Of a stretch of 36,921 bases of DNA, positions 2,835-31,190 are shown one piece after another. The stretch lies in the NCBI GenBank assembly GCA_020848455.1, contig JADLAB010000285.1, positions 1 to 36,921 on the forward strand, read 5' to 3'. Under the pieces are notes generated by a model, which saw nothing but the letters and a program-made list of their open reading frames with translations, had not been told where the DNA came from and ran no database searches. Made by a program: the position numbers and the translations under genes. The first letter of the stretch is position 1. Each line of letters starts with the position of its first letter. The stretch comes from Polyangiaceae bacterium. GTDB taxonomy: Bacteria; Myxococcota_A; Polyangia; Polyangiales; Polyangiaceae.

Positions 2835-2927
2835 CGATACCGGGTAGCGCCGAGCTTGGCGCCACAGCCGCGCCGCAATTTCGGGGACGGAGGTGCTGCC
2901 CCGCCGGAACCCTGCTAGCGGGGGCGC

Positions 2928-5036
2928 ATGGAAGAACTGCTCACCCTGCTCGGTCCGGAGCTCGCCGCGGCCTTTGCCGAGAAGGGCTACACGAGCCTGA
3001 CCGCCGTGCAGGCGGCGGTGCTCGCGCCCGAGGCCCGGGGGCGCGATCTCCGGATGAGCTCGCAGACGGGCTCGGGCAAGACCGTGGCCCTCGGGCTCGC
3101 GATCCGCGAGGTGCTCGCCGCCGGCGAGGGCCTGCGCGCGCTCGTGATCGAGCCGACGCGCGAGCTCGCCAAGCAGGTGGAGGAGGAGCTCGGCTGGCTG
3201 TTCCGCCGCGCCGGAGTGCGGGTCGCCTCGGTCACCGGCGGCGCGTCGTACCGCACCGAGCACCGCGCGCTCGCCGCCCGGCCGGCCATCGTCGTCGGCA
3301 CGCCGGGGCGGTTGCTCGACCACCTCGGGCGCGGCACGCTCGACGCGGGCACGGCGGGCGCCGTCGTGCTCGACGAGGCCGATCGCCTGCTCGACATGGG
3401 CTTCCGGGAAGATCTCGAGAGCATCCTCGCGTTCACCCCGGCCGAGCGGCGGACCCACCTCGTCTCGGCCACCTTCCCGCGCGAGGTGCAGGCCCTCGCC
3501 GACTCCGTGCAGAAGGAGCCGCTGCACGTCGAGGGCACGCGCCTCGGCGTCGCGCACACCGACATCGAGCACCTGTTGCACCTGGTCGAGCCCCGCGACC
3601 GGCTCCCGGCGCTCGTGAACCTCCTCTTGAGCGAGCCCGACGGCCAGACGCTCGTCTTCGCGCGCACGCGCGCCGACGTGGCCGAGCTCACCGAGGCGCT
3701 GCTCGAGGCGGGCTTCACCGTGCGCTCGCTCTCCGGTGAGATGGCGCAGGGCGAGCGCGAGCGGGCGCTCGCGGCCTTCAAGCGCGGCGAGCTCCACGCG
3801 CTCGTCGCCACGGACGTGGCGGCGCGCGGCATCGACGTGCAGGACGTGGCGCGCGTCATCCAGATGGAGCCGCCGAGCGACGCCGACACGTACACGCACC
3901 GCAGCGGTCGCACGGGCCGCGCCGGGCGCAAGGGTGAGAGCATCGTGCTCGTCACGCCGGTCGCCCTGCGGCGCGTGCGCCTCGTGCTCGAGCGCGCCCA
4001 CGTGACGCCCCGCTTCGCACCCGTGCCGACGGCCGAGGCCATCCGGGCCGCCGCCCTCGAGCGGGCCGTCGCGGCGCTCACCGCCGAGCCGGCCGAGGGG
4101 CCGGCGCGCGTCGCCCCGGAGACCGCCGCGCTGGCAGCGCGCCTGGCGGCGAGCGGCGACATCGTGCGCGTGCTCGAGCGGCTGCTCGAGCGCACGCGCT
4201 GGTCGGGGCCCGCGACGCCGCGCCACGTGCGCTTCATCGCGCCCCCGGAGGCCCCGCGACCGCGCACCGAGCGCCCGCGCCGCGACGCCGGCGAGCGGGT
4301 GTGGGTGCCCTTCCGGGTGTCGTGGGGCCGCGAGCACGGCGCCGATCCGCGCCGCCTGCTCGCGATGCTGTGCCGGCGCGGCGGCATCGTGAGCGCCGAC
4401 GTAGGCAGCATCCGCATCGGCTCGCACGCCTCGCAGATCGAGATCGCGGCCGACGTGGCGGACGGCTTCGCCGAGCTCGCGTGGCGCCCCGATCCGCGCA
4501 ACTCGCGCGTGTCGATCCGCCGCGAGGGCGCAGCGGCGCAGCCGCCGCGCGGGGAGCGACCCCGGGTGAGCGCGCACGAGGCGCCGACGCCGACCGCCGA
4601 CGTCGCCCCGCCCGCGCGACCGAGCCGACCGCGGCGGCCTCCCGCAGAAGCCGAGGCGCCGAGCGCGCCCGCGCCCGCGCGACCGAGCCGGCCGCGCCGT
4701 ACGGAGGCCGAGCCGAGCGCGCCGGCGCACGCGCGACCGAGCCGCCCGCGACCGGCGCCTGCCGAGCGGCCGCGCCCGAGCCGACCGCGCTACGCTCGCG
4801 AGGTGCCCGAGCGACCTCGCGCGAGCCCGCGCCCGCCCGCCCCCGCCGTCGAGCGCCCGCGCGCGAGTCGCCCCCGCCACGCGAGCACCGACGCCGGCGA
4901 GACGCGCCCGACCCGGCCGCGGAGCCTCCACGGGCCGGGCGCCTCGCGCAACGAGGGAGCGCCGGAGCGGCCGGCGCGCCGGCCGGGACCGCCGCCGGCG
5001 CGGGGCCGCGACTGGCCGCCGCGCCGGCCGCGCTGA
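2928..5036 (+). CDS. DEAD-box ATP-dependent RNA helicase with DbpA domain and Arg/Pro-rich tail
   Basis: This 702-residue cytoplasmic helicase unwinds structured RNA, probably in ribosome assembly or RNA decay (DeaD/CsdA/DbpA group). Motifs in order: Q-motif-like GYTSLTAVQ (20-28), I SQTGSGKT (45-52), Ia PTREL (76-80), Ib TPGR (125-128), II DEAD (149-152), III SAT (180-182), VI HRSGRTGRAGR (324-334). A DbpA-type RNA-binding domain follows at about 458-531. Residues 532-702 are a low-complexity tail with repeated RPSRPR or RASRPR units, strongly basic and Pro-rich. The Q motif has Leu in place of the usual Pro. The tail makes it longer than typical DbpA. It stands alone and converges with the zinc-ribbon gene 19 bp away. 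Confidence 0.95.
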   Translation: MEELLTLLGPELAAAFAEKGYTSLTAVQAAVLAPEARGRDLRMSSQTGSGKTVALGLAIREVLAAGEGLRALVIEPTRELAKQVEEELGWLFRRAGVRVASVTGGASYRTEHRALAARPAIVVGTPGRLLDHLGRGTLDAGTAGAVVLDEADRLLDMGFREDLESILAFTPAERRTHLVSATFPREVQALADSVQKEPLHVEGTRLGVAHTDIEHLLHLVEPRDRLPALVNLLLSEPDGQTLVFARTRADVAELTEALLEAGFTVRSLSGEMAQGERERALAAFKRGELHALVATDVAARGIDVQDVARVIQMEPPSDADTYTHRSGRTGRAGRKGESIVLVTPVALRRVRLVLERAHVTPRFAPVPTAEAIRAAALERAVAALTAEPAEGPARVAPETAALAARLAASGDIVRVLERLLERTRWSGPATPRHVRFIAPPEAPRPRTERPRRDAGERVWVPFRVSWGREHGADPRRLLAMLCRRGGIVSADVGSIRIGSHASQIEIAADVADGFAELAWRPDPRNSRVSIRREGAAAQPPRGERPRVSAHEAPTPTADVAPPARPSRPRRPPAEAEAPSAPAPARPSRPRRTEAEPSAPAHARPSRPRPAPAERPRPSRPRYAREVPERPRASPRPPAPAVERPRASRPRHASTDAGETRPTRPRSLHGPGASRNEGAPERPARRPGPPPARGRDWPPRRPR

Positions 5037-5055
5037 CCTCACGAGGGGCACCGGC

Positions 5056-5790
5056 TCAGCCCGGGAAGAGCAGCTCGAGGAGGTCCCCGACCGAAAGCCC
5101 CCGGCGCAACCCGAGGCGGCGACTGACGGCGTCGACCGAGCCCCAGGCCGCCTGCTCGCGGGCGTCCTCGGCGAGCAGCGAGGCCGCGAGGCGCGCCGCC
5201 AGCGCCTCGGGCGTCGTGGTCTCGAAGCTCGGCTCCGATGCGGCAAGCGGACTGCTCCGCGGCGCCGGGCTCGTCGCTCGCTCCCGCGCCGCCGCGAGCC
5301 CGACCGAGCGCACGTACTCGATGGCGTCGTCGAGCTCACCGGCGTCGAACCAGCTGCCGTGAGCGGCGCACGCGTCGACGAAGATCCCCGAACGGGTGCC
5401 GAGGGCCTCGCGCTCCATCGCCTGCCGGCACGCGGGGCACGGGAAGCTGCGCACGTCGGGGTCGCACCGCTTGCGCAGCTGGAATGGTGCCGAGGACCGA
5501 GCCGCGTCGGCCGCGACGAGCGCGGCTCGCAGCTCGGCGTGGTCGACGAACGTCCCGCGGCACCGGCCGCACGTCGCGCCGCGGGCTCCGCGGGCGAGCT
5601 CGAGCCGGCAGCGCGGGCAGAGGAGCGGCGTCGAGGGAGCCGGGGCCGGCGCCGCCGCACGGTACGGCGACTCGGCCGGCGCGGCCGTGGCTCTCTCGAC
5701 CTCGTAAGCGTTCATGGCGCCGCACGCGGGACACCGGATCTGCTTCGCGGGGAACGCCATGATGGTCTTGCCGCACGCGCTGCACAGCAT
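5056..5790 (-). CDS. Multi zinc-ribbon protein (zf-TFIIB-like)
   Basis: This 244-residue protein has three predicted zinc-binding modules. The first is C3/C6-C20/C23, a rubredoxin-like knuckle pair. The second is C58/C61-C74/C77. The third is C118/C121 with C141 and H144, in a segment (IFVDACAAHGSWFDAGEL) that matches the bacterial zf-TFIIB pattern ending WFDAGEL. Ala/Pro-rich linkers separate the modules. The C-terminal 60 residues are helical and end in SVGDLLELLFPG. No catalytic domain is visible, so a role in protein or nucleic-acid binding is the most that can be said. It is convergent with the helicase and divergent from the M23-type lipoprotein. Confidence 0.85.
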   Translation of the reverse strand: MLCSACGKTIMAFPAKQIRCPACGAMNAYEVERATAAPAESPYRAAAPAPAPSTPLLCPRCRLELARGARGATCGRCRGTFVDHAELRAALVAADAARSSAPFQLRKRCDPDVRSFPCPACRQAMEREALGTRSGIFVDACAAHGSWFDAGELDDAIEYVRSVGLAAARERATSPAPRSSPLAASEPSFETTTPEALAARLAASLLAEDAREQAAWGSVDAVSRRLGLRRGLSVGDLLELLFPG

Positions 5791-5877
5791 GCGGGCACCG
5801 TCTCACGAACCGCCGACGGGCGCACTCCGCGCCAGTGCGGGTGGCCGCCCGCCTTCCCATCCCCGCACCCGGGGGGA

Positions 5878-5883
5878 TATCGT
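5878..5883 (+). promoter_or_regulatory. -10-like hexamer TATCGT, 6 nt before the M23 lipoprotein start
   Basis: TATCGT is followed by exactly six bases and then ATG 5890, and no Shine-Dalgarno sequence is present. Transcription would start at or next to the A of the ATG, giving a leaderless mRNA. A weak -35-like TTCCCA lies at 5854-5859. The same spacing recurs before four other genes in the window. Confidence 0.5.
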
Positions 5884-5889
5884 CACCGG

Positions 5890-7119
5890 ATGCACACGAC
5901 CACGCCGTGGGCGGTGGGGGCCGCGGCCGCGCTCGCCGCGACCGCAGCTGGCGCAGCGAGCTGCGCCAAGGACGCGAGCGAGGGGGACGGCGGCTCCGGG
6001 GGAGCCGGCGCCAGCACGACGAGCACCTCGACCACGGTCGGCGGCGGCGGCGCGGGCGCGAGCGGCGGCGGAGGCAGCGCGAGCGGCGGCGGGGGACAGG
6101 GCGCCGGCGCAGGCGGCAGCGCGCCAGCGGACCCCTGCGCCGCGGCGTCCGATGGCCCGCACTGCGGCAGCGCGCTCGGAGGCAACGCCGACCACGGCAG
6201 CCTCTACACGTGCGGCGGCGGCGTCACGCTCACGGTGACGCCGTGCCAGAGCGGCTGCCAGAGCGACGCCTGCAACGCCGTCGAGGCCGATCCGTGCGCC
6301 TCGGCGCAGAGCGGCAACGGCGCGTACTGCGGGGGCTCGCTGTCGAGCGGCGACCCGGCGTACCTCTACGACTGCCAGAACGGCTCGACCGCGGGGACGA
6401 CGTTCTGCGCGAGCGGCTGCCAGGTGAACCCGCCCGGCGTGGCCGACAACTGCAGCGCGGGCGGTGACCCCTGCCAGAACGCCCAGAGCGGCAACGGGCT
6501 CTACTGCGGCGGCTCGCTCGGCGCCGGAGACGCGAACACGCTCTACGACTGCCAGGGGCAGAGCACCGCGTCGGCGACCGTGTGCCCGAACGGCTGCCAG
6601 ATGATGCCGCCCGGCCAGGCCGACCAGTGCCAGCCGACCGCTGGCGGCAGCTGCTGCGTCGCCGAGCCGCCCGGGTGGCTCACGCAGGCGTACTCGGCCT
6701 GCGGCGGCGGCGGCAGCCACTACGGCGTGGACTACGGCACCGCCGTCGGGACGCCGATCTACGCCGGCATCAGCGGCACGGTCGTCGGCTCCGCGCTCGG
6801 CTACCCCAACTGCTACGACAACGGCTGCACACCGAGCTGCTGGAACTCCTTCAACTACGTGAAGCTGAAGAGCGACTGCGGCGACCCCGCCGATCCGTCG
6901 CGCGATCTGTTCGTCTACTACCTGCACATCGACGCTCTCGCGCCGGGCGTCGGCAACGGCGACCACGTCGCCCAAGGGACGCTCGTCGCCTACTCCGGCA
7001 ACAGCGGATGCTCGTCGGGCCCGCACATCCACCTCGAGACGGTGAGCGTGCCGGCCGGCGGCTCGGCGAGCCTGTCCACCTGCAGCTCGGTCGACCCCGC
7101 GACGCGGTACTGCCCGTAG
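5890..7119 (+). CDS. Secreted M23 (LytM-type) metallopeptidase lipoprotein with three Cys-rich repeats
   Basis: This 409-residue exported protein probably binds or cleaves peptidoglycan or another extracellular peptide. A signal peptide ends at a lipobox-like AASC (C25). A Gly/Ser/Ala linker follows (26-80). Then come three related Cys-rich modules at about 81-133, 134-192 and 193-253, each starting DPC and containing CGGSL or CGSAL, LYxC and GCQ. The M23 domain keeps the zinc ligands HxxxD (H277, D281), the YLH strand (H346) and HxH (H379, H381 in GPHIHLE), so it may be active. It is divergent from the zinc-ribbon gene and converges with the next lipoprotein, with 8 bp between stops. The role of the Cys modules is unknown. 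Confidence 0.9.
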   Translation: MHTTTPWAVGAAAALAATAAGAASCAKDASEGDGGSGGAGASTTSTSTTVGGGGAGASGGGGSASGGGGQGAGAGGSAPADPCAAASDGPHCGSALGGNADHGSLYTCGGGVTLTVTPCQSGCQSDACNAVEADPCASAQSGNGAYCGGSLSSGDPAYLYDCQNGSTAGTTFCASGCQVNPPGVADNCSAGGDPCQNAQSGNGLYCGGSLGAGDANTLYDCQGQSTASATVCPNGCQMMPPGQADQCQPTAGGSCCVAEPPGWLTQAYSACGGGGSHYGVDYGTAVGTPIYAGISGTVVGSALGYPNCYDNGCTPSCWNSFNYVKLKSDCGDPADPSRDLFVYYLHIDALAPGVGNGDHVAQGTLVAYSGNSGCSSGPHIHLETVSVPAGGSASLSTCSSVDPATRYCP

Positions 7120-8668: not shown

Positions 8669-10930
8669 TCAGCGCCCGAGGCGCCGGACCTCGAGCACGT
8701 CGCGGTGCTGATCGAAGCGCTGGAGCAGGCGCGAGAGCTGGTCCGCGTCCTGGAACTCGAGCGACAGCCGGAGCCAGGCCGTGCCGTCCTTCTCGTGCGC
8801 CTCGGCGCGCGCCTTGAGCATGCTGACGCCGCTCTGGACCACGAGGTCGGACAGATCGCGCAGCAGGCCCTTGCGCGACTGCGCGTGGATCTCGACCTCC
8901 ACCGGGTAGCGCTCGCCTCGGCCAGGGCCCCAGTCGATGTCGACCAGGCGCTCGGGCTCGGTGTGGTCGACCACGTGGGGGCAGTCGCGCCGGTGGATGG
9001 TGATGCCGCGGCCGCGACTGATGTAGCCGACGACGGCGTCGCCGGGCATCGGGTTGCAGCAGCGCGCGCGGTTGCCGAGGATGTCGCCGACGCCGCCGAA
9101 GGACACGCCCGAGGTCGACGCGCGCGCGACCTTGGACGGCGTGGGGGTGGGCGGAGGCAGCGAGACCTCGGGCTCCCGCTCGGCCGCGTCGTGGCGTTCG
9201 AGCTCGAGCGCCGCGGCGCCGACGCCGTGGTGGCTGCGGTCGCCGTAGCCCACGGCCGCGTAGAGATCCTCGACCGACGGAAACCCGAGCCGCGTGGCGA
9301 CGCGCTCGGCGAGGGCGTGCTCGAGCCCGAGCCGCTTCAGCTCGCGCTCGACGAGCTCCCGCCCTTGCGCCACCGAGACGTCGCGCTCCTGCTCCCGGAA
9401 CCAGGCCCGCACCTTGGTGCGCGCGCTCGCCGTCCGCAGGTAGCCGAAGCTCGGGTTCATCCAGTCGCGGCTCGGCTGCGCCTTCTTCTGGGTCAGGATC
9501 TCGACCCGGTCGCCGGTCTTCAGCTGGTAGTCGAGCGGCACGATCTGGTCGCTGACGCGCGCCCCGCGACAGCGGTGCCCGACCATGGTGTGGATGCGGT
9601 AGGCGAAGTCGAGCGGCGTCGCCCCCTGCGGCAGGTCGACGACGTCGCCGGCGGGCGTGAACACGTAGACCTGGTCCTTGAAGATGTCGGTCTTCAGCGA
9701 CTCGACGAACTGGTGGGGGCTGGTCGCCTCGCGCTCCCAATCCATCAGCTGGCGCAGCAACATGAAGCGCTTGTCCATGTCGCGCGTGCCCTTGCGCTCC
9801 TTGTAGGCCCAGTGCGCCGCGACGCCGAACTCGGCGTACTGGTGCATCTCGTGGGTGCGGATCTGCACCTCGAGCGGCTTGCCGCTGGGACCGACGACCG
9901 CCGTGTGCAGCGACTGGTAGAGGTTGTCCTTGGGGCGCGCGATGTAGTCGTCGAACTCGCCGGGCAGCGGCAGCCACAAGGAGTGGACCATGCCGAGCGC
10001 CGCATAGCAGTCGCTCACCTTGCCCGTGATGATGCGGACGGCGCTCATGTCGTAGATCTGGTCGAAGCTCACCTCCTTGCGCTGCATCTTCTTGTAGATG
10101 CTGTAGACGTGCTTCGGCCGGCCGCTCACCACGCCGTCGATACCGGCCTCCGCGAGCTTCTGGCGCAAGAGCGCCACGACCTCGCGGATGAACGCGGCGC
10201 GCTCCTCCTGATGCTCGGCGAGCAGGCGCGTGAGCTCGTCGTAGGTCTCGGGCTCGAGCTCGGCGAGCGCCGCGTCCTCGAGCTCCCACTTCAGCTGCCA
10301 GATGCCGAGCCGGTTCGCGAGGGGCGCGAACACCTCGAGGGTCTCGCGCGCGAGCCGCTGGCGCTCCTCCGGCGTGGGGATGGCCGCGGCGCGACTGCCG
10401 GGCTTGCCGTCGCCCGCGCTCGCGCGGAGCGCGCGCATGAGCTCGACCCGCAGCGCGAGCACGACGACGACGACGCGGATGTCCGCGGCCATCGCCAGGA
10501 ACATCTTGCGCAGCGTCTCGGCCGCCTCTTCCTCGATGCGGTCCCAGCGGATCGACTGCAGCCGCCCGACGCCGTCGACGAGCTTGGCGATCTCGCTGCC
10601 GAACTCGAGCTCGAGCTCGCTCTTCGGGCTCGCCGCGGGCTGGGCGGCGGGGCTCGACTCACGCGCCCCGCCGCGCGACACCGGCGCGAGGCCCGCGGCG
10701 GCGAGCAGGATGGCGGCGACCGCGGGCGGGTCGAGCCGCATGGCGGCGAGCGACGCGGCGGCGGCGAGGCCGGCGCGCAGGCCGAGCGCGCTCAGCCCAG
10801 CCGCCGCGCGGCGCTCGAGCACCGCGTGCGCCTTCTCGACCGCTGCGAGATCGTCCCCGGGGTGACGCTCGCGCAGCGCCGCCAGCACGGCCGGGAGCTC
10901 GGGTAGCGGGGGCGGCGACAGATCGGGCAT
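8669..10930 (-). CDS. relA: RelA-type (p)ppGpp synthetase, hydrolase domain degenerate
   Basis: This 753-residue long RSH protein makes (p)ppGpp from ATP and GTP/GDP in the stringent response. The N-terminal HD hydrolase region (about 20-200) is decayed: no HD dyad is recognisable and the usual ADRLHN-like block reads VLALRVELMRAL. The synthetase domain (about 265-380) is intact: GRPKHVYSIYKKM, DMSAVRII, YQSLHT and EVQIRT. The charge motif is EFDD (325-328), which marks monofunctional RelA, not the RXKD of bifunctional Rel/SpoT. TGS follows at about 418-480 (RIHTMVGHRCRGA), then a helical domain, a Cys-containing domain (CCNPMPGD, 624-631; DCPH, 649-652) and an ACT domain (about 675-750). It is divergent from the PAS histidine kinase. 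Confidence 0.95.
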   Translation of the reverse strand: MPDLSPPPLPELPAVLAALRERHPGDDLAAVEKAHAVLERRAAAGLSALGLRAGLAAAASLAAMRLDPPAVAAILLAAAGLAPVSRGGARESSPAAQPAASPKSELELEFGSEIAKLVDGVGRLQSIRWDRIEEEAAETLRKMFLAMAADIRVVVVVLALRVELMRALRASAGDGKPGSRAAAIPTPEERQRLARETLEVFAPLANRLGIWQLKWELEDAALAELEPETYDELTRLLAEHQEERAAFIREVVALLRQKLAEAGIDGVVSGRPKHVYSIYKKMQRKEVSFDQIYDMSAVRIITGKVSDCYAALGMVHSLWLPLPGEFDDYIARPKDNLYQSLHTAVVGPSGKPLEVQIRTHEMHQYAEFGVAAHWAYKERKGTRDMDKRFMLLRQLMDWEREATSPHQFVESLKTDIFKDQVYVFTPAGDVVDLPQGATPLDFAYRIHTMVGHRCRGARVSDQIVPLDYQLKTGDRVEILTQKKAQPSRDWMNPSFGYLRTASARTKVRAWFREQERDVSVAQGRELVERELKRLGLEHALAERVATRLGFPSVEDLYAAVGYGDRSHHGVGAAALELERHDAAEREPEVSLPPPTPTPSKVARASTSGVSFGGVGDILGNRARCCNPMPGDAVVGYISRGRGITIHRRDCPHVVDHTEPERLVDIDWGPGRGERYPVEVEIHAQSRKGLLRDLSDLVVQSGVSMLKARAEAHEKDGTAWLRLSLEFQDADQLSRLLQRFDQHRDVLEVRRLGR

Positions 10931-11025
10931 CGAACGGCAGAGTTGTAGGTGCGCGGACAGGTCCGCGCAACCCGCCGTGGGAGCCGGGTGCGCGGGATTC
11001 GGTTCCCAGGCTCCGGCGACGGCCT

Positions 11026-11031
11026 TAGAGT
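11026..11031 (+). promoter_or_regulatory. -10-like hexamer TAGAGT before the histidine kinase
   Basis: TAGAGT lies 11 nt before GTG 11043, with TTCCCA at 11003-11008 at a 17-nt spacing as a weak -35. If used, the transcript would have a leader of only a few bases. It supports GTG 11043 over the in-frame GTG at 10977, which lies upstream of this element. Confidence 0.4.
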
Positions 11032-11042
11032 CAGGGCAAACC

Positions 11043-13256
11043 GTGACGCCGTCCTGCCCGCTCCCCCGCTCGACGACGTGGCTCCGCGATCTCGCGGCGG
11101 CCTCGCCCGACGCCCTGCTGGTCGTGGGCGCCGACGGCACGATCCTCGAGGCCAACGAGCACGCGGGCGCGCTGTTCGGCTGGGCCTGCGACGAGCTCCG
11201 CGGCCGCGACGTGAACGAGCTCGTCCCGCTCGCGGCGCGCGCGGCGCACGCGGACGCCATGCGGGTCTACCACGGCGCGCCGCACCGGCGCCGCATGGGC
11301 TCGGGTCTCGAGCTCGCCGCTCGGCGGCGGGACGGCAGCGAGCTCTCCGTCGACATCGCGCTCGCTCCGCTCGACACCGAGTCGGGACGCGTCGTCGTGG
11401 CGTCGGTGCGAGACATGACGGCCGTGCGCGCGAGCGAGCGCGCGCTGCGCCAGGCCGAGCAGCGCATTCGCACGGTGATGGAGCTCGCGCACGTGGGCAC
11501 CTGGGAGCACGACGTCGCGAAGGGCACGCGCAGCTACTCGCCCGAGCTGCTCGCGATGCTGGGCCTGCCGGAGTCCCACGCGACGAGCGAGGCGTTCTTC
11601 GCGGCCGTGCACCCCGAGGACCGCCCCGCCGTGGCGGCGGCGAGCCGGCGTGCGCTCGAGGAGGCGGCCCCCTACGACCTGCGCATGCGCGTGCGCCACG
11701 CGGACGGCACCTGGCGCTGGTTCGAGACCCGTGCCTTCCCGGACCTCTCGGGCCCGACGCCCCACCTGCGCGGCCTCGTGATGGACGTGACCGAGCGCGT
11801 GGCGAGCGAGCTCGAGGCCGAGCGGCGCGAGCGCGAGCTGCGCGTGCTGCTCGACACGCTGCCGAGCGCCGTCGCGCTCGTCGACGCGCGCGGGCACATC
11901 GCGTACGCCAATCGCCGCTTCGACGGCGGCCCGGTCGAGGAGATCCTCGGCACGCCCTTCGTCGAGCGCGTGGCCCCCGAGCTCCGCCCCACGCTCGCGC
12001 GGCAGCTCGAGCAAGCCCGCGCCACGGACGCCAAGCTGGACTCCGAGCACTGGACCTCGCTCGGGGGGCCGGAGCTGCGCTGCATCGCCCTGCGGCTGCG
12101 GCGCCTGACGGACGACTCGGGGCGGGTGCTCGCGGTGGCCAAGGACGTGACGGCCGAGCGCCGCGCCGCCGCGCAGCTCGACGAGCTGCGCCAGGCGATG
12201 GAGAACGCGGTCGAGGGCATCGCGCGCGTGGACGCCTCGGGCCGCCACCTGTCGGTGAACGCGGCGTACGCCCGCATGCACGGGCGCACCCCCGAGGAGC
12301 TCCTCGGCCGCGAGGCGCTGTCGCTGTTCGTCCCGGAGGACGCGGAGGTGGCCGGCGAGGCGCGCCTGCGAATGCTGGCGACGGGGCGCAGCGAGGTCGA
12401 GCTCACGGCCGAGCGCCCCGACGGATCGCGGCTGCCGGTCGTCGCGGTGCTGGTCCGGGCGTGCGCGCCCACGGCGGGCTGGTTCTGCTTCTTGCGCGAC
12501 GCGAGCGAACAGCACCGCACGCGCGAGCAGCTGGTCGTGTCCGACCGGCTCGCGTCGCTCGGCCTGCTGGCGGCGGGAGTGGCCCACGAGATCAACAACC
12601 CCCTGGCCGCGATCCTCGGCAACCTCGAGCTGCTCGAGCTGCGCCTGGCCGGCGCCGCGCCCGGCGTGCCCGGGCTCGCCGAGCCGCTCAAGGACGCGCG
12701 CACCGCCGCGGCTCGGGTGCGGCAGGTGGTGCGCGATCTGCACGTCTTCGCGCGCGCCGAGGAGCGCCTGCTCGGGCCGGTCGACATCCGCCAGGTGCTC
12801 GACACGACGGTGCGGCTCGCCGAGTGCGAGACCCGCCATCGGGCCCGCGTGCGCTGCGACTACGCGGGCGGCTCGCTCGTGCAGGGCGACGAGGCGCGCC
12901 TCGGGCAGGTGTTCCTGAACCTCATCGTCAACGCCGCGCAGGCCATCGAGGCGGGTGACCCCGACGGCAACGAGATCCGCGTCGCGACGCGGGCGGTCCC
13001 ACCGGACCGGCTCGCGGTCGAGGTGAGCGACACCGGCCGGGGGATCGCGCGCGCGGATCGGGCGCGCCTCTTCAGCCCGTTCTTCACCACGAAGCCCCCG
13101 GGGGTCGGGCTCGGCCTCGGGCTCGCGATCAGTCACCGCATCGTGTCGTCGCTCGGAGGGCAAATCGAGGTCGAGAGCGAGCCGGGCCGGGGCACGACGT
13201 TCCGCGTGCTCTTGCAGGCCGCGGCGCCGCCGCGCGACGGCGCGGTACCGCCGTGA
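11043..13256 (+). CDS. Soluble multi-PAS sensor histidine kinase
   Basis: This 737-residue protein has no signal peptide or membrane segment, so it is a cytoplasmic sensor. Four PAS domains lie at about 15-128, 140-253, 265-373 and 380-490, the second with a PAC-like tail (YDLRMRVRHADGTWRWFE). The dimerisation/phosphoacceptor domain has H515 in AGVAHEINNPLAAILGN. The HATPase domain has an N box NLIVNAAQAI (626-635), G1 DTGRGI (663-668), F box FSPFFTTK (677-684) and G2 GVGLGLGLA (687-695). All catalytic boxes are intact. No response regulator is adjacent, so it is an orphan kinase. An alternative GTG at 10977 would add 22 residues. The signal sensed cannot be told from sequence. Confidence 0.93.
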   Translation: MTPSCPLPRSTTWLRDLAAASPDALLVVGADGTILEANEHAGALFGWACDELRGRDVNELVPLAARAAHADAMRVYHGAPHRRRMGSGLELAARRRDGSELSVDIALAPLDTESGRVVVASVRDMTAVRASERALRQAEQRIRTVMELAHVGTWEHDVAKGTRSYSPELLAMLGLPESHATSEAFFAAVHPEDRPAVAAASRRALEEAAPYDLRMRVRHADGTWRWFETRAFPDLSGPTPHLRGLVMDVTERVASELEAERRERELRVLLDTLPSAVALVDARGHIAYANRRFDGGPVEEILGTPFVERVAPELRPTLARQLEQARATDAKLDSEHWTSLGGPELRCIALRLRRLTDDSGRVLAVAKDVTAERRAAAQLDELRQAMENAVEGIARVDASGRHLSVNAAYARMHGRTPEELLGREALSLFVPEDAEVAGEARLRMLATGRSEVELTAERPDGSRLPVVAVLVRACAPTAGWFCFLRDASEQHRTREQLVVSDRLASLGLLAAGVAHEINNPLAAILGNLELLELRLAGAAPGVPGLAEPLKDARTAAARVRQVVRDLHVFARAEERLLGPVDIRQVLDTTVRLAECETRHRARVRCDYAGGSLVQGDEARLGQVFLNLIVNAAQAIEAGDPDGNEIRVATRAVPPDRLAVEVSDTGRGIARADRARLFSPFFTTKPPGVGLGLGLAISHRIVSSLGGQIEVESEPGRGTTFRVLLQAAAPPRDGAVPP

Positions 13257-16536: not shown

Positions 16537-18564
16537 ATGCGACGGTGGGCTTGGCTCGGTGTGGCGCTCGCGTGCGGTGCCGGCTGCGGCGGGACGAGCG
16601 AGGTGAGCGGCGGCTCGGGACGGCCGCCGGCCGAGCCGGACGGCGCTGGCGACGCGGTCGCGAGCGCGCTGCCACCGCCCTCGGCCGCGCCCACCGGCGC
16701 CCCGTCCGCGGTGAGCGGCAGCGCCGGACCGCTCGTGCCCGACGGCGTGCCACCCGGCCCGTTGGCGCGCGCCGATCTGCCGCGCTACGACATCGACCAG
16801 GCGATCGACGACGTCGCCGGCACCTTCGCCGGCAAGGTCCGGGTGTCCTTCCGGAACCCGGGCACGACGCCCCTCGCCAGGCTTCCGTTCCTGCTCCACC
16901 CGAACGCCTTCGCGGAGCTCGGCGGGGCGCCCGGCGGGGCTGGCTCGATCGCGGTCACGGCCGCCCACACGCCCGCGGGCGCGGCGCTCGCGTGGCAGAG
17001 CGAGCGGCCGACGCTCGTGTCGGTCGCGCTCGAGCCGCCCGTGGCGCCCGGCGAGCGCGCCGAGCTCGTTCTCACGTACACGGGGAGGCTGCGGGTGCTG
17101 CCGCCGAGCTCGAACGACATGTTCGAGCAGGCCTTCGCCTCGCTCGGCTCGTTCACGGGCGCGGGCGCGAGCGACTACGGGCTGCTCGCGATGGGCGACG
17201 GGCTCGTCACGCTGTCGAGCGCCTTCCCGACCGTGGCGCCCCATCGCGACGGCGCCTTCGACACGCACCCGCCGGCGCGCCTGGGCGACCTCGCCTACAA
17301 CGGCGTGGCGAGCTTCCACGTGCGCACGGCCGTCCCTTCGGGGGTCGACCTCGTGACGAACCTCGTGGACGGGGCGCCAGTCACGCTCGGCGACGGCAAC
17401 GTGGCCTTCGTGAGCGACGGCGATCTGGTGCGCGACCTCGTGCTCGTCGCCGGCCGCGACCTCGCGCGCTCGAGCGCCATGGTCGGCCAGACGCGCGTGA
17501 CCTCGATCTACCGGACGCGGGACGCACGCGGCGGCAAGGAGGCGCTCGACGCGGCCGCCGCCGCGCTCGCGAGCTTCGAGAAGCGCTTCGGCCCCTACCC
17601 CTACAGCGAGCTCGACGTGGCCGAGGCGACCCTGGTCGGAGGCGCGGGCGGCGTGGAGTTCTCGAGCATGGTGCTCATCGCCGGCATGCTCTACCGCTCG
17701 CCCGACGAGAGCCAGAGCCAGCTCGCCGGCCTCATGAAGCTCTGGTCAGGCCTGTCCGGCGGGCTCGGCGGCCTCGGCGGCCCGAGCCCCGCTCCCGCAC
17801 CGAGCGCGGCACCACCGGCCGTGACGGGCTCGCCCGCCGATTTGCTCGACGGGATGCTCGAGTTCACCGTGGCGCACGAGGTCGCGCACCAGTACTTCGC
17901 GGGCATCGTCGGCAACGACAGCTACCGGTTCCCGTCGCTCGACGAGCCGGCCGCCCAGTACGCCGCCGCGCTCGCCATCGAGGACCGCCACGGCGCCGCC
18001 GCCGCGGCGCGCGCCGCCGACGCCAACGTGAAGATGAACTACGCGCTCTACCGCCTGCTCGGCGGCCCGGACCGCCCGGTGCTGCGCGACACCGCGAGCT
18101 TCCGGACCGGGGTCGAGTACGCGGCACTCGTCTACGGCAAGGCCCCGTACCTCTACTTCACGCTCCGCCAGAAGCTCGGCGAGCCGCGCCTCGCGGAGGC
18201 CATGCGCCGCGCGGTCGAGCGCTACCGCTTCCAGGTCGTGTCGACCGAGCAGTGGACCGCCGCGCTCGAGGAGGCGGCCGGTGGCCCGAGCTCGGGCGTG
18301 CGCGCGACCTTCCAGCGCTACCTCGAGCAGACGCACGGCGACCAGGACCTCGGCGTCGACGAGTCGGGGGACTTCGTGCTCGCGACCCTGTTCCCGCCCG
18401 AGATGGTGAGCACCCTCAAGCAGGCCATGGCGAGCCTCGGCATGAAGCCCGGCGCGCTCTTGCGCATGCTGTTCGGCGGGAGCCTCCGCGACGACGCCAA
18501 GGTGGGCCCGGGGCTCGACCCCTCGCAGGCCCTGAAGCAGCTCGGCGGCCTCGGGGGCCCCTAG
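16537..18564 (+). CDS. M1-like zinc metallopeptidase lipoprotein
   Basis: This 675-residue exported protein probably hydrolyses N-terminal peptide bonds outside the cytoplasm. A signal peptide ends at a lipobox-like GAGC (C17), followed by an Ala/Pro/Ser linker to about 75. A beta-rich domain follows (about 80-300). The gluzincin core is HEVAH (447-451) with E470 exactly 18 residues after the second His, the M1 spacing. The GxMEN exopeptidase motif is represented by GGVEFSSMVLI (372-382), with Val for Met and Phe-Ser after Glu, so substrate choice may differ. A Gly/Pro/Ala-rich insert lies at about 407-431. It stands alone after the Hsp20 pair and converges with a small unknown gene. Confidence 0.9.
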   Translation: MRRWAWLGVALACGAGCGGTSEVSGGSGRPPAEPDGAGDAVASALPPPSAAPTGAPSAVSGSAGPLVPDGVPPGPLARADLPRYDIDQAIDDVAGTFAGKVRVSFRNPGTTPLARLPFLLHPNAFAELGGAPGGAGSIAVTAAHTPAGAALAWQSERPTLVSVALEPPVAPGERAELVLTYTGRLRVLPPSSNDMFEQAFASLGSFTGAGASDYGLLAMGDGLVTLSSAFPTVAPHRDGAFDTHPPARLGDLAYNGVASFHVRTAVPSGVDLVTNLVDGAPVTLGDGNVAFVSDGDLVRDLVLVAGRDLARSSAMVGQTRVTSIYRTRDARGGKEALDAAAAALASFEKRFGPYPYSELDVAEATLVGGAGGVEFSSMVLIAGMLYRSPDESQSQLAGLMKLWSGLSGGLGGLGGPSPAPAPSAAPPAVTGSPADLLDGMLEFTVAHEVAHQYFAGIVGNDSYRFPSLDEPAAQYAAALAIEDRHGAAAAARAADANVKMNYALYRLLGGPDRPVLRDTASFRTGVEYAALVYGKAPYLYFTLRQKLGEPRLAEAMRRAVERYRFQVVSTEQWTAALEEAAGGPSSGVRATFQRYLEQTHGDQDLGVDESGDFVLATLFPPEMVSTLKQAMASLGMKPGALLRMLFGGSLRDDAKVGPGLDPSQALKQLGGLGGP

Positions 18565-24822: not shown

Positions 24823-26397
24823 ATGGTCGACGCCGTGGGGCCTCGGGGCGGCACCGCGGGGGCGCACCCGAGGCCCTGGCCCGACCTCGGCTGGCTGGCC
24901 TTCGCCGGTCTGGCGTGCCTCGCCTGCGGCGCCGGGCCCCCGGTCGCGCGGCACGGACGCGGTCCCCGCCCGCCGCCCGCGGTCGCGGGGCCGAGCTGCA
25001 GCTTCGAGGTGCGGCAACGCGCCGCCGGCAGGGGCCTGTTCGACGTCGAGGGACGCTGCCCCGGGGCCGGACTGGCGGGCTTCGCGCCGACGGAGCCGGC
25101 TGTCGCGGCCCACCTCACGGCGGTGACGACCGCGCGCGGCGCGCCGCTCGTGGCGACCAACGACGTCTTCACGCTGCCACCCGACGCGGCGCCCGAGGAC
25201 GCCGACGCCATCCGCTACACGGTCGACCTCGACGCGCTGGCCGAGGACCGCGAGGACTTCGACCTCGCCCTGCGCAGCGGCGGCTCGCTCCTGGCGCCGG
25301 CCTCGAGCTTCGTGCTCTGCCCGTCGCCCGCCTCGAAGGCGGGCGACATCGCCGTGACGGTGCGCATGCAGTCGGGGGAGCGCTTCACGAGCGGCATGCG
25401 CTTCGACGGCGAGCGCTACCACCTCGGGGCCCACGAGGTCGGCGTCTCGACCTACGGGGTCTTCGGGCGCTTCACGAGCGAGCCCTTCGAGCTGCCGGGA
25501 CGCTTCGCCCTCGGACCACCGCCGGCGCCGCCTGGCGCGGAGCCCCCGAAGGCCGCCGCGACCCGCGCGGCGATCGAGCTCGTGACGCTCGAGGGACCGC
25601 TCGAGAGCAGCGCGGCCGAGCGGCGCGCCTGGGTCGAGCGCGTGGCACGCGCCGTCGCGGCCTTCTACCGAGGCTTCCCGGTCGCCCGCACGGTCGTCGT
25701 GGTGGTGCCGCTCGCGGGCCACGGCGAGGTCGCCTTCGGCAAGGTCGTGCCGGCGAGCGGACCGACCGTGCTCCTGACCGTGGGCGCGAGCGCCGACGCG
25801 GCGGCGCTCGGGCGCGACTGGATCCTGGCGCACGAGCTCTTCCACCTCGGCGTGCCGTCCTTCGCCGGCCGCGGGAAATGGCTCGACGAGGGGCTCGCGA
25901 CCTATTTCGAGCCGCTCGTGCGCGTGCGCGCCGGCCTGCTCGACCCGGCGATCGCCTGGCGCGACTTCTACTACGGCATGCGGGCGGCGGCCGCGGCGCT
26001 CGGTGCCGGACGGCTCGACGCCGCCAAGGACTACCGCGACGTGTACTGGGGCGGCGCGCTCATCGCGCTGCTCACCGACCTGGCGGCGCGGGAACGCGCG
26101 GCCGGAGGGGTCGGGCTCGAGGTGGGGCTCCGGGCCGTGCTCGGCGCGGGCGGCGACGCGAGCACGGTGTGGTCGCTCGAGGACGTGGTGCGCGCGGTGG
26201 ATGGCGCGCTCGGGGCGCCGCTGCTCGCCGAGCACACGCGGACCTACGCCGAGCGCGGCGCGCCCGTCGATGTCGACGCCCTGTTCGCGGCGCTCGGCGT
26301 GCACGTCGACGGCGAGCAGGTGAGCTTCGACGACGACGCCCCGCGCGCCGCGCTGCGCCGCGCGCTCGTCGCCGGCGACCCGGCGCCGAGCGACTAG
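24823..26397 (+). CDS. Gluzincin-like (peptidase MA/M61-type) metallopeptidase lipoprotein
   Basis: This 524-residue exported protein has a signal-like segment ending LACLAC (lipid Cys at about 32 or 35), then a beta-rich domain (about 55-245) and a peptidase-like domain. The zinc site is HELFH (337-341) followed 14 residues later by E356 in KWLDEGLATYFE, the spacing typical of the peptidase MA-like group and shorter than the 18 residues of M1. The zinc ligands and the catalytic Glu (E338) are intact, so activity is plausible. The substrate is unknown. Its TAG stop and the TAG of the opposite-strand kinase gene share the bases CTAG. Confidence 0.88.
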   Translation: MVDAVGPRGGTAGAHPRPWPDLGWLAFAGLACLACGAGPPVARHGRGPRPPPAVAGPSCSFEVRQRAAGRGLFDVEGRCPGAGLAGFAPTEPAVAAHLTAVTTARGAPLVATNDVFTLPPDAAPEDADAIRYTVDLDALAEDREDFDLALRSGGSLLAPASSFVLCPSPASKAGDIAVTVRMQSGERFTSGMRFDGERYHLGAHEVGVSTYGVFGRFTSEPFELPGRFALGPPPAPPGAEPPKAAATRAAIELVTLEGPLESSAAERRAWVERVARAVAAFYRGFPVARTVVVVVPLAGHGEVAFGKVVPASGPTVLLTVGASADAAALGRDWILAHELFHLGVPSFAGRGKWLDEGLATYFEPLVRVRAGLLDPAIAWRDFYYGMRAAAAALGAGRLDAAKDYRDVYWGGALIALLTDLAARERAAGGVGLEVGLRAVLGAGGDASTVWSLEDVVRAVDGALGAPLLAEHTRTYAERGAPVDVDALFAALGVHVDGEQVSFDDDAPRAALRRALVAGDPAPSD

Positions 26398-29300
26398 CCC
26401 GGGTTCGAGGCGCGCGGGCCGCCGCTCTGCGTGCCGTGGGCCCGCGCGCGCTCGAGCACGGCGCGCACCGGCGGGCGCTTGAAGTAGAGCGCGCGGTGGG
26501 CGCGGTCGCGGATGTAGCTAGCGAGCCGGTCGACGTGCCCGAGGGCGCGCTGGCACACGTCCTTGATCATCGCCGGGGGCTCGTCCTCGCCCTCGGCCGC
26601 CCCGAGCGACGAGGCGCACATGGCCTCGCAGCACAGCGAGCGCACCTCGAGGCCGTACTCGGAGCCCTCCATCGCCTCGACGGCGCCGAAGGCCGTCGTC
26701 GCCAGCAAGAGGCCCGCCGACTGGTTGCCGAGCGCCACGCGCGCCACCGCCTCGATGGCGGTGGCGTACACGTGGTAGCTGCCGAGCGCCTGCCCCTCGG
26801 CGAGGGGTCGTGCCTCGGCGGCGTAGGCCGCGGCGGCCTCGTCGTCGCCGTCCGCGCGGGCGATCAGCGCCCGCAGGATGAGCGCGTGGCAGGTGTCGTA
26901 CACGCTGCCGCCGACGGCGGTGAGCGCGCTCGCGTCGCCGAAGAGCGTACGGGCCGCCTCGAGGTCGCCGCGCTCGAGCAGCACGCCGGCCGTCACGAGC
27001 AGGGTGTCCACCCGACCGTCGAGGTCGTCGTAGCGGTCGTGCGCCTCGCGCGCGCGCGCTAGGTAGGCGAGCCCGTGATCGACGTCGCCGAGCCGCGCGT
27101 AGCTCTGCCCCACGTTGCTCAGCGTCTTGGCCACCTGGAAGCGCCCGCCGATCATGACGTCGAGCGCGATCGAGGCGAGACACATCGAGATCGTGTCCTC
27201 GAAGCGCCCGAGCGTGAAGAGCGCGAAGCCGAGCGCGTTGCGGGCGCGCGCCTCGCTGCGCCGGGCGCCGAGCTCGTGGAGCATGGCGATGGCCTCGGCG
27301 TGGGCCTCGCAGGCGGCGTGCAGCCGTCCGGCGCGCCGCAAGAGCACGCCTTTGGTGCGCAGCACCTCCGCCCGCGACAGGAGCGAGACCGCGCCCGCCG
27401 TCGAGGCCACGCGCAGCGCGCGCTCGCACGCCTCGAGCGCGCCGTTGGCGTCGCCGAGGTCGCGCAACAGCTCGCACAGGTTGATGAGCGCATCGACCTC
27501 GACGTCCGGGCGCTTCGCGAGCCGCGCCAGCTCCGCGGCGCGCTGCGCCACCGGCAGCCCGCGCGCCATGGCTCCCTCGTCGAGGTCGAAGCGCGCGGTG
27601 CGCACCAGGGCCTCGGCGATCCAGGCGGCCTGCCGGGTCTCGCGCGCGAGCTTGCGCAGGGCCGCGAGGTGCTGGATGCGCTCCGGGCGCTGCCCCGCCT
27701 GGCGGTAGATGCCCTCGAGCGCCTCGTGCGCCACGAGCCGGCGCGTGTCGCCGCTCGGCAAGAGCGCGAGCGCGCGCTGGAAGTAGCGCAGGGCGAGCTG
27801 CGTCTGGTTGGCGGAGCGCGCCGCCGTCGCGGCCTCGATGTAGAGCTCGGCGGCCGGGCCCGGCATCTCGCCGCGCTCGAGGTGCTGCGCCACGATCGCG
27901 GCCGAGAGCCCGCGTGCCAGCGGCGTGGTGGCGAGGTGCTCGCCGAGCCGCCGGTGCATGCGCGTCCGGTGCACGGCGTCGAGCGCGTGGTAGGCCACGT
28001 CGCGCGCCAGCGGATGGCGGAAGTCGACGGCGCGGACCTTCTTGTCGCACATGCCGCGCGCACACAGCCGGGCGATGGCCTCGTCGTCGACGAGCCGCGC
28101 CAGCGTGATGAGGTCGGGCTCGGCGAGCGGACCGCCGGCGACCGCCAGCCAGTCGACGACGTCGTGCTCGGCGGGCGGCAGCTCGCGCAGGCGGTCGCCG
28201 ACGAGCTGCTCGATCGTGGACGGCAGCGCGTCGGCCCCGTCGCCCGCGCGCTCCTCGTGGCGCACGAGCACGGCCTCGGCCGGCGCGGCCGAGGCGTGGG
28301 CGCCGGCCGCGTCCGGTGCGCGCCCGCCCGGGGCGGGTGCCGCCGGACGCTCGACGATCTCGAGCGCCCCGCGCTCGAGCATCGCGTCGACCATCTCGAG
28401 CAGGAAGTACGGGTTGCCGCCGACGCGCGGGACGAGCTCGCGGCACACCGCCGCCACGCCCTCGCGCACGCCGAGCCGCGCCTGCACGAGCCGGATCTGG
28501 TCGTCGGCGCCTAGACCGCCGAGCTCGATGCGCACGAGGTCCTCGAGGAAGGGGTTGGCCTGCTCGTCGGGGCGCGTGAGGAGCAGGATCAGCACCGGCA
28601 GGGCCTCGCGGCGCGACAGCACCTGCTGCAAGAGCTCGAGGCTCGGGCGGTCCGCCCACTGCAGGCCGTCGATGACGATGACGACCGGCCGCTCGCGCGC
28701 CACGGCGCCGATGAGCAGGCGCACGCCCCGCACCACGAGCTCGTGGCGATAGCTCGCGGCGTCCTCCTCCTGCTCGACGCGCTGCCGCCCGGTCACGAGC
28801 TCGGCGACCCGTGCGACCAGGCGGTCGACCTTGCCCGAGTCGGCCTCGACCTGGAGGATCTCGCGCACGCGCGCCACCACCGTCTCGTGACTGTCGTCGA
28901 TGCCGGAGCCGGTCACCTCGCGCAGCAGATCGCTCACCGCGGCGTACGGCAGGTCGATCTTCACCGGCGAGCACTCCACGCGCAGCGTGCGGCACTCCTC
29001 GGGCAGCTCCGCGACGAAGGCCTCGACGAGCGCCGTCTTGCCGATGCCCATCTCGCCCACGACCACGCGCGCCGCGAGCTCGCCGCCGCGCCCGCCCGGC
29101 AAGGGCGCCACCGAGCGGAGGCCGAGCGGCGCCTCCGGGCGGCGACTCGGCAGGGGCGGCAGCGCGGGGGCGTCCACCGCGACCGGCCCGGGCGCGGCGC
29201 TCTCGCGCCGGTCGGGGCGCAGCGAGGCCTTCGGGTCGCGCCGCGCCGGTGGCGGCACGCTGTGGCGCGAGGGCTGCACGGCGTGATGGTAGGCCGCGTG

Positions 29301-31190
29301 CAGATCGGCCTTCTCGGCGTCGCGGCCGACGAGATCGCTCGGCGCCAGCGCGAGCTCGGCCATGCGCTCGTCGGCGGTGATGGGACGGTGCAGCACGTAG
29401 GCGCGCATGCGCTCCGGCACGTTGTGGCGCTCCGCCTCGGCGAGCTCGATCGAGGGGCCGTCGCTCCAGCGGAACTCGCGGCGCACGAGGCGGTAGACGC
29501 CGCCGGCCACCCAGGTCTTGCCGAACGGGGTGCGCGACCCGAGCTCGGCCGCGAGGTAGCCCGCCGGCTCGTGGAGATCGTGGTGCTCCAGGTTGCCGAG
29601 CTCGTCGCGCTCGCCGGACGCCATGCCGCGCACCACGGCCACCGACCCGCGGATCTGCACGGGCAGATCCTGCGAGGCGCCCGCGAGCGCCTCGTGGATG
29701 TCGATGGCGATGAAGGCGGCCTCGCGCGCCGCGCGCGCGGGGTTCTGAAGCAGGCCGACGACCGCGATGCCGAAGGGGTCGCCGTCGCGCGGCAACGCCT
29801 CGGCGCCCTGCACCTGCGAGGCCGCGGCGAGCGGCACGGCGGGCGACAGGGCCACGCGCGACGCCGCCGCCTCGCTCACCTCGAGCCGCACCGGCACGCC
29901 CGCGGCGAGGGCGACGGCGGCGCGCTCACCCGGCCCGGAGCCGGGCGGCGGCAGCGGCAACGCCTCGCGCCCCGTGCGCCAGGACCACACCGCGCCGCGC
30001 TTGTAGGCGATGGCCTCGAAGGTGGCCCGCGTCGAGGCGAGCACGCGGGTCGCCGCCGCATCGCCGAGCGCCTCGGAGAGCTCCTCGAAGCCCTCGAGGC
30101 GCAGCGTGACGACGGCGACGTGGCGCACCTCGCGCACCACGCGCCGCGAGGGCTGCTGCTCCGCCGTGCCGAGCTGGCTGAGATCGGCGGCTTGCGTCCG
30201 CGGCTTGCGGACCGCGGCCAGCGTGCGGGGCTCCTCCTCGTCGCCGATCGTGCCGCCGTCGCGGCCGAGCAGCTCGTGGATCATCGCCTCGATGCTGGTC
30301 TGGTCGACGAGCTTCTGGTTCTCGAGCAGGGCGCGACCGACCGCGAAGCTGAGCTCGCGGGCGGTGCGGAAGCGGTCGTCGGGCGCGCGCGCCAGGGCCT
30401 GCATCACGATGCGCTCGAGCTCCGGGGGCACGCCGTCGACCGCGGAGGAGGGCGGCCGCACCGCGCCGTGGCGCACCGCCTCGGCCAGGGCGGCGTCCTT
30501 CAGGGCGCCGTACGGCGAGCGCAGCGTCAGCATCTCGTAGAGCACCACGCCGAGCGCGTAGACGTCGCTGCGTCGGTCGACGCGCTCGCCCCGCGCCTGC
30601 TCGGGCGACATGTAGGCCACCTTGCCCCGGAGGATCCCGGTCTCTTCCCGGAACAGGTTGGCGCTCGCGATGCCGAAGTCGGCGATCTTCACCACACCGC
30701 CGTAGGAGATGAGGATGTTCTGGGGCGAGACGTCGCGGTGCACGATGGCGAGCGGCAGCCCGCCCTCGTCCTTGCGCTCGTGCGCGTAGTGCAGGCCCTT
30801 GGCCACCTCGCTGACCACGAAGGCAGAGACCCACGGCGGCAGCGTGCGCTCGCGCTTGCGCGCGGCGCGGATGAGCTTGCCGAGGTCGACGCCCTCCACG
30901 TACTCCATCGACAGGAGCAGCTCGTCGCCGTGGTGGCTGAACTCGTACACCTGCACGATGTTCGGGTGGTTCAGGCGCGTGGCGAGCTGCGCCTCCTCGA
31001 CGAACATGTGCCGGAAGCGCCGCGAGCCGGTGTGCTCCGGCAGGATGCGCTTGACGACGAGGAGCTTGAAGGTGCCCTCGGCGCCGCGCTTCTTGGCGAG
31101 GAACACCTCGGCCATGCCACCCGAGCCGAGGCGCCGGATGAGCTCGAAGCCCGACAGCTCGAGCGGGCTCTGGCGCGGCGGTTCGGTCAT
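26394..31190 (-). CDS. Serine/threonine kinase - cyclase-like - AAA ATPase - TPR signalling protein
   Basis: This 1598-residue cytoplasmic protein has four parts. An apparently active Hanks-type kinase (about 15-290) has GSGGMAEV, K47, HRDVSPQN (151-158), DFG (171-173) and SPEQ. A class III nucleotide-cyclase-like domain (about 355-600) is decayed: the metal-binding first segment reads VTLRLEGFEELSEAL without the Asp, and the second-metal block is TGREALPL. A STAND/AAA_16-type ATPase starts at LVGRDAE (620-626), is split by an 80-residue Pro-rich insert, and has Walker A GEMGIGKT (712-719) and Walker B VVIVID (836-841). A long TPR array runs from about 1050 to the end. The layout resembles PknK or TOMM-system kinase/cyclase fusions. 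No cognate cluster is nearby. Confidence 0.95.
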   Translation of the reverse strand: MTEPPRQSPLELSGFELIRRLGSGGMAEVFLAKKRGAEGTFKLLVVKRILPEHTGSRRFRHMFVEEAQLATRLNHPNIVQVYEFSHHGDELLLSMEYVEGVDLGKLIRAARKRERTLPPWVSAFVVSEVAKGLHYAHERKDEGGLPLAIVHRDVSPQNILISYGGVVKIADFGIASANLFREETGILRGKVAYMSPEQARGERVDRRSDVYALGVVLYEMLTLRSPYGALKDAALAEAVRHGAVRPPSSAVDGVPPELERIVMQALARAPDDRFRTARELSFAVGRALLENQKLVDQTSIEAMIHELLGRDGGTIGDEEEPRTLAAVRKPRTQAADLSQLGTAEQQPSRRVVREVRHVAVVTLRLEGFEELSEALGDAAATRVLASTRATFEAIAYKRGAVWSWRTGREALPLPPPGSGPGERAAVALAAGVPVRLEVSEAAASRVALSPAVPLAAASQVQGAEALPRDGDPFGIAVVGLLQNPARAAREAAFIAIDIHEALAGASQDLPVQIRGSVAVVRGMASGERDELGNLEHHDLHEPAGYLAAELGSRTPFGKTWVAGGVYRLVRREFRWSDGPSIELAEAERHNVPERMRAYVLHRPITADERMAELALAPSDLVGRDAEKADLHAAYHHAVQPSRHSVPPPARRDPKASLRPDRRESAAPGPVAVDAPALPPLPSRRPEAPLGLRSVAPLPGGRGGELAARVVVGEMGIGKTALVEAFVAELPEECRTLRVECSPVKIDLPYAAVSDLLREVTGSGIDDSHETVVARVREILQVEADSGKVDRLVARVAELVTGRQRVEQEEDAASYRHELVVRGVRLLIGAVARERPVVIVIDGLQWADRPSLELLQQVLSRREALPVLILLLTRPDEQANPFLEDLVRIELGGLGADDQIRLVQARLGVREGVAAVCRELVPRVGGNPYFLLEMVDAMLERGALEIVERPAAPAPGGRAPDAAGAHASAAPAEAVLVRHEERAGDGADALPSTIEQLVGDRLRELPPAEHDVVDWLAVAGGPLAEPDLITLARLVDDEAIARLCARGMCDKKVRAVDFRHPLARDVAYHALDAVHRTRMHRRLGEHLATTPLARGLSAAIVAQHLERGEMPGPAAELYIEAATAARSANQTQLALRYFQRALALLPSGDTRRLVAHEALEGIYRQAGQRPERIQHLAALRKLARETRQAAWIAEALVRTARFDLDEGAMARGLPVAQRAAELARLAKRPDVEVDALINLCELLRDLGDANGALEACERALRVASTAGAVSLLSRAEVLRTKGVLLRRAGRLHAACEAHAEAIAMLHELGARRSEARARNALGFALFTLGRFEDTISMCLASIALDVMIGGRFQVAKTLSNVGQSYARLGDVDHGLAYLARAREAHDRYDDLDGRVDTLLVTAGVLLERGDLEAARTLFGDASALTAVGGSVYDTCHALILRALIARADGDDEAAAAYAAEARPLAEGQALGSYHVYATAIEAVARVALGNQSAGLLLATTAFGAVEAMEGSEYGLEVRSLCCEAMCASSLGAAEGEDEPPAMIKDVCQRALGHVDRLASYIRDRAHRALYFKRPPVRAVLERARAHGTQSGGPRASNPG

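Follow-up and report, generated by a model that had tools for sequence, protein, structure and literature searches.

Architecture and closest described systems

Proteins in which a kinase is followed by a cyclase-homology region, an AAA_16-type ATPase and a long C-terminal region are already represented by the NCBIfam family TIGR03903 (TOMM system kinase/cyclase fusion). A 1598-residue protein with the same domain order is encoded in a stretch of 36,921 nucleotides from a Polyangiaceae bacterium (assembly GCA_020848455.1, contig JADLAB010000285.1), which was analysed as a whole and is hereafter called the window. It joins a complete Ser/Thr protein kinase to a degenerate class III cyclase-homology domain (CHD), an AAA_16/STAND-type ATPase and an array of tetratricopeptide repeats (TPRs). 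We consider it probable that a STAND/TPR switch controls the kinase through the apparently dead CHD, which would serve as a coupler or dimerisation element.

The window protein reaches 150.9 bits against the TIGR03903 model, far short of the 705.75 that the cut-off requires. L136 (1175 bits) and L139 (1140 bits), two proteins from relatives with large genomes, belong to TIGR03903 and also lack the first metal-binding Asp of the cyclase domain. When a FastTree phylogeny was rooted on these two proteins, the 80 other rows formed one fully supported group, in a tree in which some branches are long and the rooting on the two TIGR03903 proteins is imposed. The match to TIGR03903 and this separate group together indicate, at the sequence level, that the architecture is already known and the subfamily is distinct. 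Different from TIGR03903, the subfamily is near-universal and usually single-copy in the order to which the window's genome belongs. A kinase of TOMM biosynthesis was rejected on the score, and no TOMM gene, cyclodehydratase included, was recognised among the ten window genes scanned with Pfam, the remaining open reading frames (ORFs) and short precursor peptides being unscanned.

PknK of Mycobacterium tuberculosis, which has been classed as a STAND kinase, likewise combines a Ser/Thr kinase with a STAND-type region (PMC9045387). In MalT and PH0952, a P-loop switch is followed by a TPR-type sensor, and for these two proteins the STAND and TPR mechanism, with a closed ADP form, an open ATP form and multimerisation, has been established (PMC6468293). 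Different from them, the window protein has a kinase as its candidate output, and its Pfam TPR_MalT match is below the cut-off. To our knowledge, no cyclase-homology domain has been reported for PknK.

Kinase-free proteins in which a cyclase domain precedes an AAA_16-type ATPase (for example ORF C277 of the window's genome and L187, the latter with TPRs) keep their metal-binding Asp residues, whereas the window protein combines an N-terminal kinase with a dead cyclase. A domain order broadly of this kind, but with two cyclase domains, is that of mammalian soluble adenylyl cyclase. For its C1 and C2 domains, see PMC3838963. A handful of proteins provide a lead that kinase-fused cyclase domains may generally be dead and that kinase-free cyclase–AAA proteins may keep their catalytic residues. 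The window's genome also encodes further kinase and AAA_16 proteins (L183, L184 and L190), whose region between kinase and ATPase is recognised barely or not at all by cyclase profiles. In L183 and L184 this region gave no cyclase profile match; read by eye, it is possibly a further degraded cyclase remnant.

A degenerate cyclase domain retained across the phylum

The middle domain, described as cyclase-like at about residues 350–605 in a preliminary description made from the sequence alone, is a relative of class III cyclases. A Pfam scan of the window protein found no cyclase domain in this copy. A profile of 31 CHD sequences (A1) was built from orthologues in genomes of the same family and order. 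Its top 19 matches in the PDB are all class III cyclases (best E-value 8.5e-4), and hhalign aligned it over 178 columns with a second profile (A3), made from ten cyclase domains encoded in the window's genome (probability 97.3, E-value 2.5e-11). The Pfam model Guanylate_cyc matches six of the 31 profile members (best E-value 2.4e-8). An AlphaFold model of the CHD from the window sequence alone, made with no alignment, was poor (pLDDT, the predicted local distance difference test score, 43). The order of its elements, E-H-H-E-(insert)-E-H-E, is as in cyclases, and its top 33 Foldseek matches, none with an E-value better than 0.003, are all class III cyclases; for a cyclase fold, this search counts as no more than supporting evidence.

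Catalytic positions were counted in 86 aligned relatives, some of which belong to other classes of the phylum, and order-level counts were taken from 68 sequences. The first metal position, at which the preliminary description had correctly noted the loss of Asp in the segment LRLEGF, is R364 in the window copy and Arg in 57 of the 86 relatives. Asp occurs there in one of the 86, and L167 (G395), with the segment VCGDLRGF, is the sole family member seen with it. Differences in hairpin length make the second metal column difficult to align; it varies within the family and is not Asp in the window copy, and the Asp found there in 11 order-level sequences may be a loop residue. TGREALPL, previously taken for the second-metal block, instead opens an insertion in the beta2-beta3 hairpin. 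Of the 68 order-level sequences, 63 have Trp in place of the base-contact Lys, a position that is mostly Arg outside the order; none has the transition-state Asn, and 16 keep its Arg partner. Trp, Tyr and Glu stand in these three columns in the window copy, which lacks the two metal Asp, the base Lys and the transition-state Asn and Arg of active class III cyclases.

Catalytic residues are kept on both sides of this domain. The catalytic Lys (K47), the alphaC Glu (E66), D153 of HRD, N158 and D171 of DFG are invariant in all 85 sequences covering them, as is characteristic of Hanks-type Ser/Thr kinases and in line with the complete kinase core reported initially. In the ATPase, the Walker A residues G712, G715, G717 and K718 are kept in 86 of 86 sequences, and the acidic residue of Walker B is Asp in 66 and Glu in 18. 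The CHD is apparently enzymatically dead in nearly every relative examined, and the loss of its cyclase residues is, as judged from the alignment, ancestral to the subfamily, representing an old, conserved design. Decay of a single gene is ruled out because the loss is common to nearly all relatives; close homologues with both metal Asp residues were not found, and the fold comparisons did not speak against a cyclase fold.

Across the order, 140 of 183 genomes, from 70 of 83 genera, have a match to the CHD profile, usually one and mostly in open frames of at least 1400 codons; at an E-value of 1e-8, matches were also found in 64 of the 282 genomes sampled throughout the phylum. Among 20 loci outside the order, 17 match the profile of the full-length family along almost their whole length and L166 matches it over the first two thirds; L168 and L170 encode kinase-free cyclase–AAA proteins with both Asp kept. 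The only match in a single-protein search of contigs was the congener, a metagenome-assembled genome labelled Myxococcales bacterium, which NCBI places in Myxococcota; the groups of the other relatives are presumptive. Profile matches and tree indicate that the window protein is a member of a separate, phylum-wide subfamily that is usually single-copy and mainly vertically inherited. Open-access literature searches yielded no description of this subfamily.

A role of the domain as a nucleotide sensor, as suggested in the preliminary description, is not favoured for the usual pocket, since the base-contact and transition-state positions are lost in addition to the metal Asp. The remodelled pocket might instead be a ligand-sensing pseudo-active site for an anion, a modified nucleotide or a small metabolite. 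The replacements by Arg at the first metal position and by Trp at the base-Lys position are non-random, and several Arg are invariant within the CHD. However, the canonical base and phosphate contacts are lost, the second metal, Asn and Arg positions vary freely, and outside the order the Trp mostly gives way to Arg, which makes a pseudo-active site appear unlikely.

Table 1. Features of the window and of one relative's locus (residue numbers refer to the 1598-residue protein).
Feature	Position	Strand	Evidence or remark
Coding sequence, 1598 aa: kinase, degenerate CHD, AAA_16/STAND ATPase, TPR	26394..31190	(-)	
Ser/Thr protein kinase domain, residues 15-275	30366..31148	(-)	Pfam Pkinase E 4e-42
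Degenerate class III CHD, residues 346-612	29355..30155	(-)	hhalign, PDB profile search, Foldseek
R364 codon at first metal-binding Asp site	30099..30101	(-)	Alignment of 86 relatives
Genus-private 63-residue insertion, CHD beta2-beta3 hairpin, residues 411-473	29772..29960	(-)	Alignment, dN/dS
AAA_16/STAND-type ATPase region, LVGRDAE (residue 620) to ~residue 950	28341..29333	(-)	Pfam AAA_16 70.4 bits
Pro-rich linker expansion, LVGRDAE box to Walker A, residues 640-705	29076..29273	(-)	Alignment
Walker A, residues 712-719 (GEMGIGKT)	29034..29057	(-)	
TPR array, residues ~1131-1560	26511..27800	(-)	Pfam TPR_12 and other TPR models; PDB TPR matches Pins/LGN
Convergent 524-aa gene, HELFH motif	24823..26397	(+)	Overlaps kinase gene end by 4 bases
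Patatin-like phospholipase gene downstream of kinase gene	L055:12752-14011		Relative's locus

A patatin-like phospholipase gene beside the kinase gene in relatives

When flanking genes were searched, many loci proved to have a gene of about 400–450 codons directly downstream of the kinase gene, which encodes a patatin-like phospholipase (Pfam E-values down to 1.6e-32) with conserved GTSVG and DGG motifs. By a hand count, 34 of about 46 genera in the order for which enough sequence was available carry it on the same strand with almost no gap, and the kinase stop and patatin start overlap by four bases in eight of 15 loci examined. Mapped on the tree, the linkage state changes seven times over 77 scored rows, which is consistent with an early gain of the patatin gene and a few losses. 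NCBIfam CBASS and other patatin models match the linked gene weakly, and open-access literature searches yielded no kinase–patatin operon described in myxobacteria. In one relative (L196, G020:C1), a second, distant patatin paralogue (5093-6634) overlaps a different kinase frame of 751 codons without AAA or TPR regions (2869-5121), so kinase–patatin pairing may have arisen more than once.

The linked patatin gene is missing from the window, from its congener and from the sister genus to theirs, and from every member outside the order for which enough sequence was available. Elsewhere, the window's genome encodes a patatin paralogue that is 40% identical and, apart from it, gives just one partial match, short and weak; a profile search found no kinase within about 5 kb of this paralogue. 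Where most relatives have the patatin gene, the window has the convergent 524-residue HELFH gene, which is context outside the kinase protein. This gene has no Pfam match and is 90% identical in the congener, where it is found in the same place.

These data bear on a second alternative, in which the kinase/STAND protein and the adjacent patatin would be one two-gene module regulating a phospholipase, with the CHD as the patatin adaptor. The frequent same-strand linkage, the four-base overlaps, the conserved GTSVG and DGG motifs and the few changes of linkage on the tree all favour such a module. Nevertheless, the CHD is equally well kept in the window, the congener and the sister genus, where the patatin gene is absent; the gene is also absent from the members outside the order, and the patatin of the window's genome is distant and has no profile-found kinase nearby. 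We regard this alternative as quite doubtful.

Comparison with PADLOC gave no specific full-length match to a known anti-phage defence system; among the matches listed, those to the kinase are kinase-domain ones and those to a relative's patatin are weak phospholipase-effector ones. A defence system was rejected because the matches reflect the kinase domain or general phospholipase effectors, and the broad, mostly single-copy inheritance argues against it. Elsewhere in the window are genes encoding a RelA/SpoT-type (p)ppGpp enzyme, 8672-11260 (-), and a protein with a peptidase M1 domain, 16537-18561 (+).

Selection on the domain and a proposed kinase switch

Orthologue alignments begin near the start of the annotated coding sequence (Table 1); a longer in-frame GTG start exists at 31592 but is without alignment support. 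Two expansions distinguish the protein. Between positions 404 and 476 there are 71 residues in the window species versus a family median of seven, and the insertion responsible is shared by this species and its congener and no other relative. The stretch from position 636 to position 708 likewise has 71 residues in between, versus a family median of nine, and the near relatives L057 (84) and L134 (63) have long linkers of their own. The Pro-rich insert of about 80 residues reported earlier is real, comprising 85 residues between E626 and G712, but to call the ATPase split was an overstatement, as this is an expanded linker; the Pfam AAA_16 match covers residues 706–868.

Ratios of nonsynonymous to synonymous substitution rates (dN/dS) between the two congeners, approximate because of the few changes, are about 0.63 for the insertion, about 0.04 for the conserved C-terminal part of the CHD and 0.02 for the kinase. 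Thus, the C-terminal part is, on these estimates, under purifying selection between the congeners and the insertion is relaxed. The low ratio, together with the retention of the domain in 140 of 183 genomes of the order, suggests more than chance, and the earlier view of a retained, non-catalytic cyclase domain agrees well with this pattern. If the CHD were passive debris, tolerated and functionless, its low similarity, variable catalytic columns and large tolerated insertion would be expected, but its full-length retention across the phylum and the selection on its conserved part make this very improbable. An unusual cyclase activity, for which the Asp of L167 at the first metal position might be cited, is scarcely conceivable, as the window copy and nearly all relatives lack the residues for metal binding, base contact and the transition state.

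The reading that we prefer is a switch-controlled kinase. A P-loop NTPase with Walker A and B motifs followed by helical repeats is what characterises STAND proteins with a TPR sensor, and the one-piece switch of kinase, ATPase and TPRs envisaged at the outset fits such an architecture. The TPR array and the STAND-type ATPase may act as sensor and switch, in which binding of a partner or ligand would lead to ADP/ATP exchange and assembly. Because class III cyclases act as dimers (PMC4886424), the dead CHD might couple the switch structurally to the kinase and serve in dimerisation, and by this analogy dimerisation is a more likely role than nucleotide sensing through the usual pocket. Assembly would bring kinase domains together, allowing trans-autophosphorylation as well as phosphorylation of substrates. 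The likeliest output or substrate across most of the order would be the patatin-like phospholipase encoded next to the kinase. With this gene missing in the window's lineage, the kinase there would have to act on something else or on the unlinked patatin paralogue. Oligomerisation, CHD dimerisation, activation of the kinase and its link to the patatin are what we infer from these comparisons.

Several observations weigh against this switch. The structure model of the CHD is without usable quality; the P-loop domain matches AAA_16, and the NACHT match, like that to TPR_MalT, is below its cut-off, so that STAND membership is judged from the general architecture. In addition, the N-terminal part of the CHD (residues 346–410) is less constrained, with a dN/dS of 0.31 from few changes, and the CHD overall is less conserved than the kinase. 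The broader picture, a phylum-wide subfamily in which a STAND/TPR switch and a dead cyclase control a kinase whose output in most of one order is a translationally coupled patatin, is put forward tentatively.

Most of the very many myxobacterial kinases have no known signal or target. A kinase that is near-universal in its order, as a rule in one copy, and accompanied by a well-defined candidate partner in most genera offers a good experimental handle, and it appears to be a clear example of a cyclase domain taken over for a non-catalytic role. The linkage to a patatin gene in relatives was unexpected and raises the interest of a kinase of known architecture; if the proposed link is true, the kinase switch would regulate membrane lipid hydrolysis.

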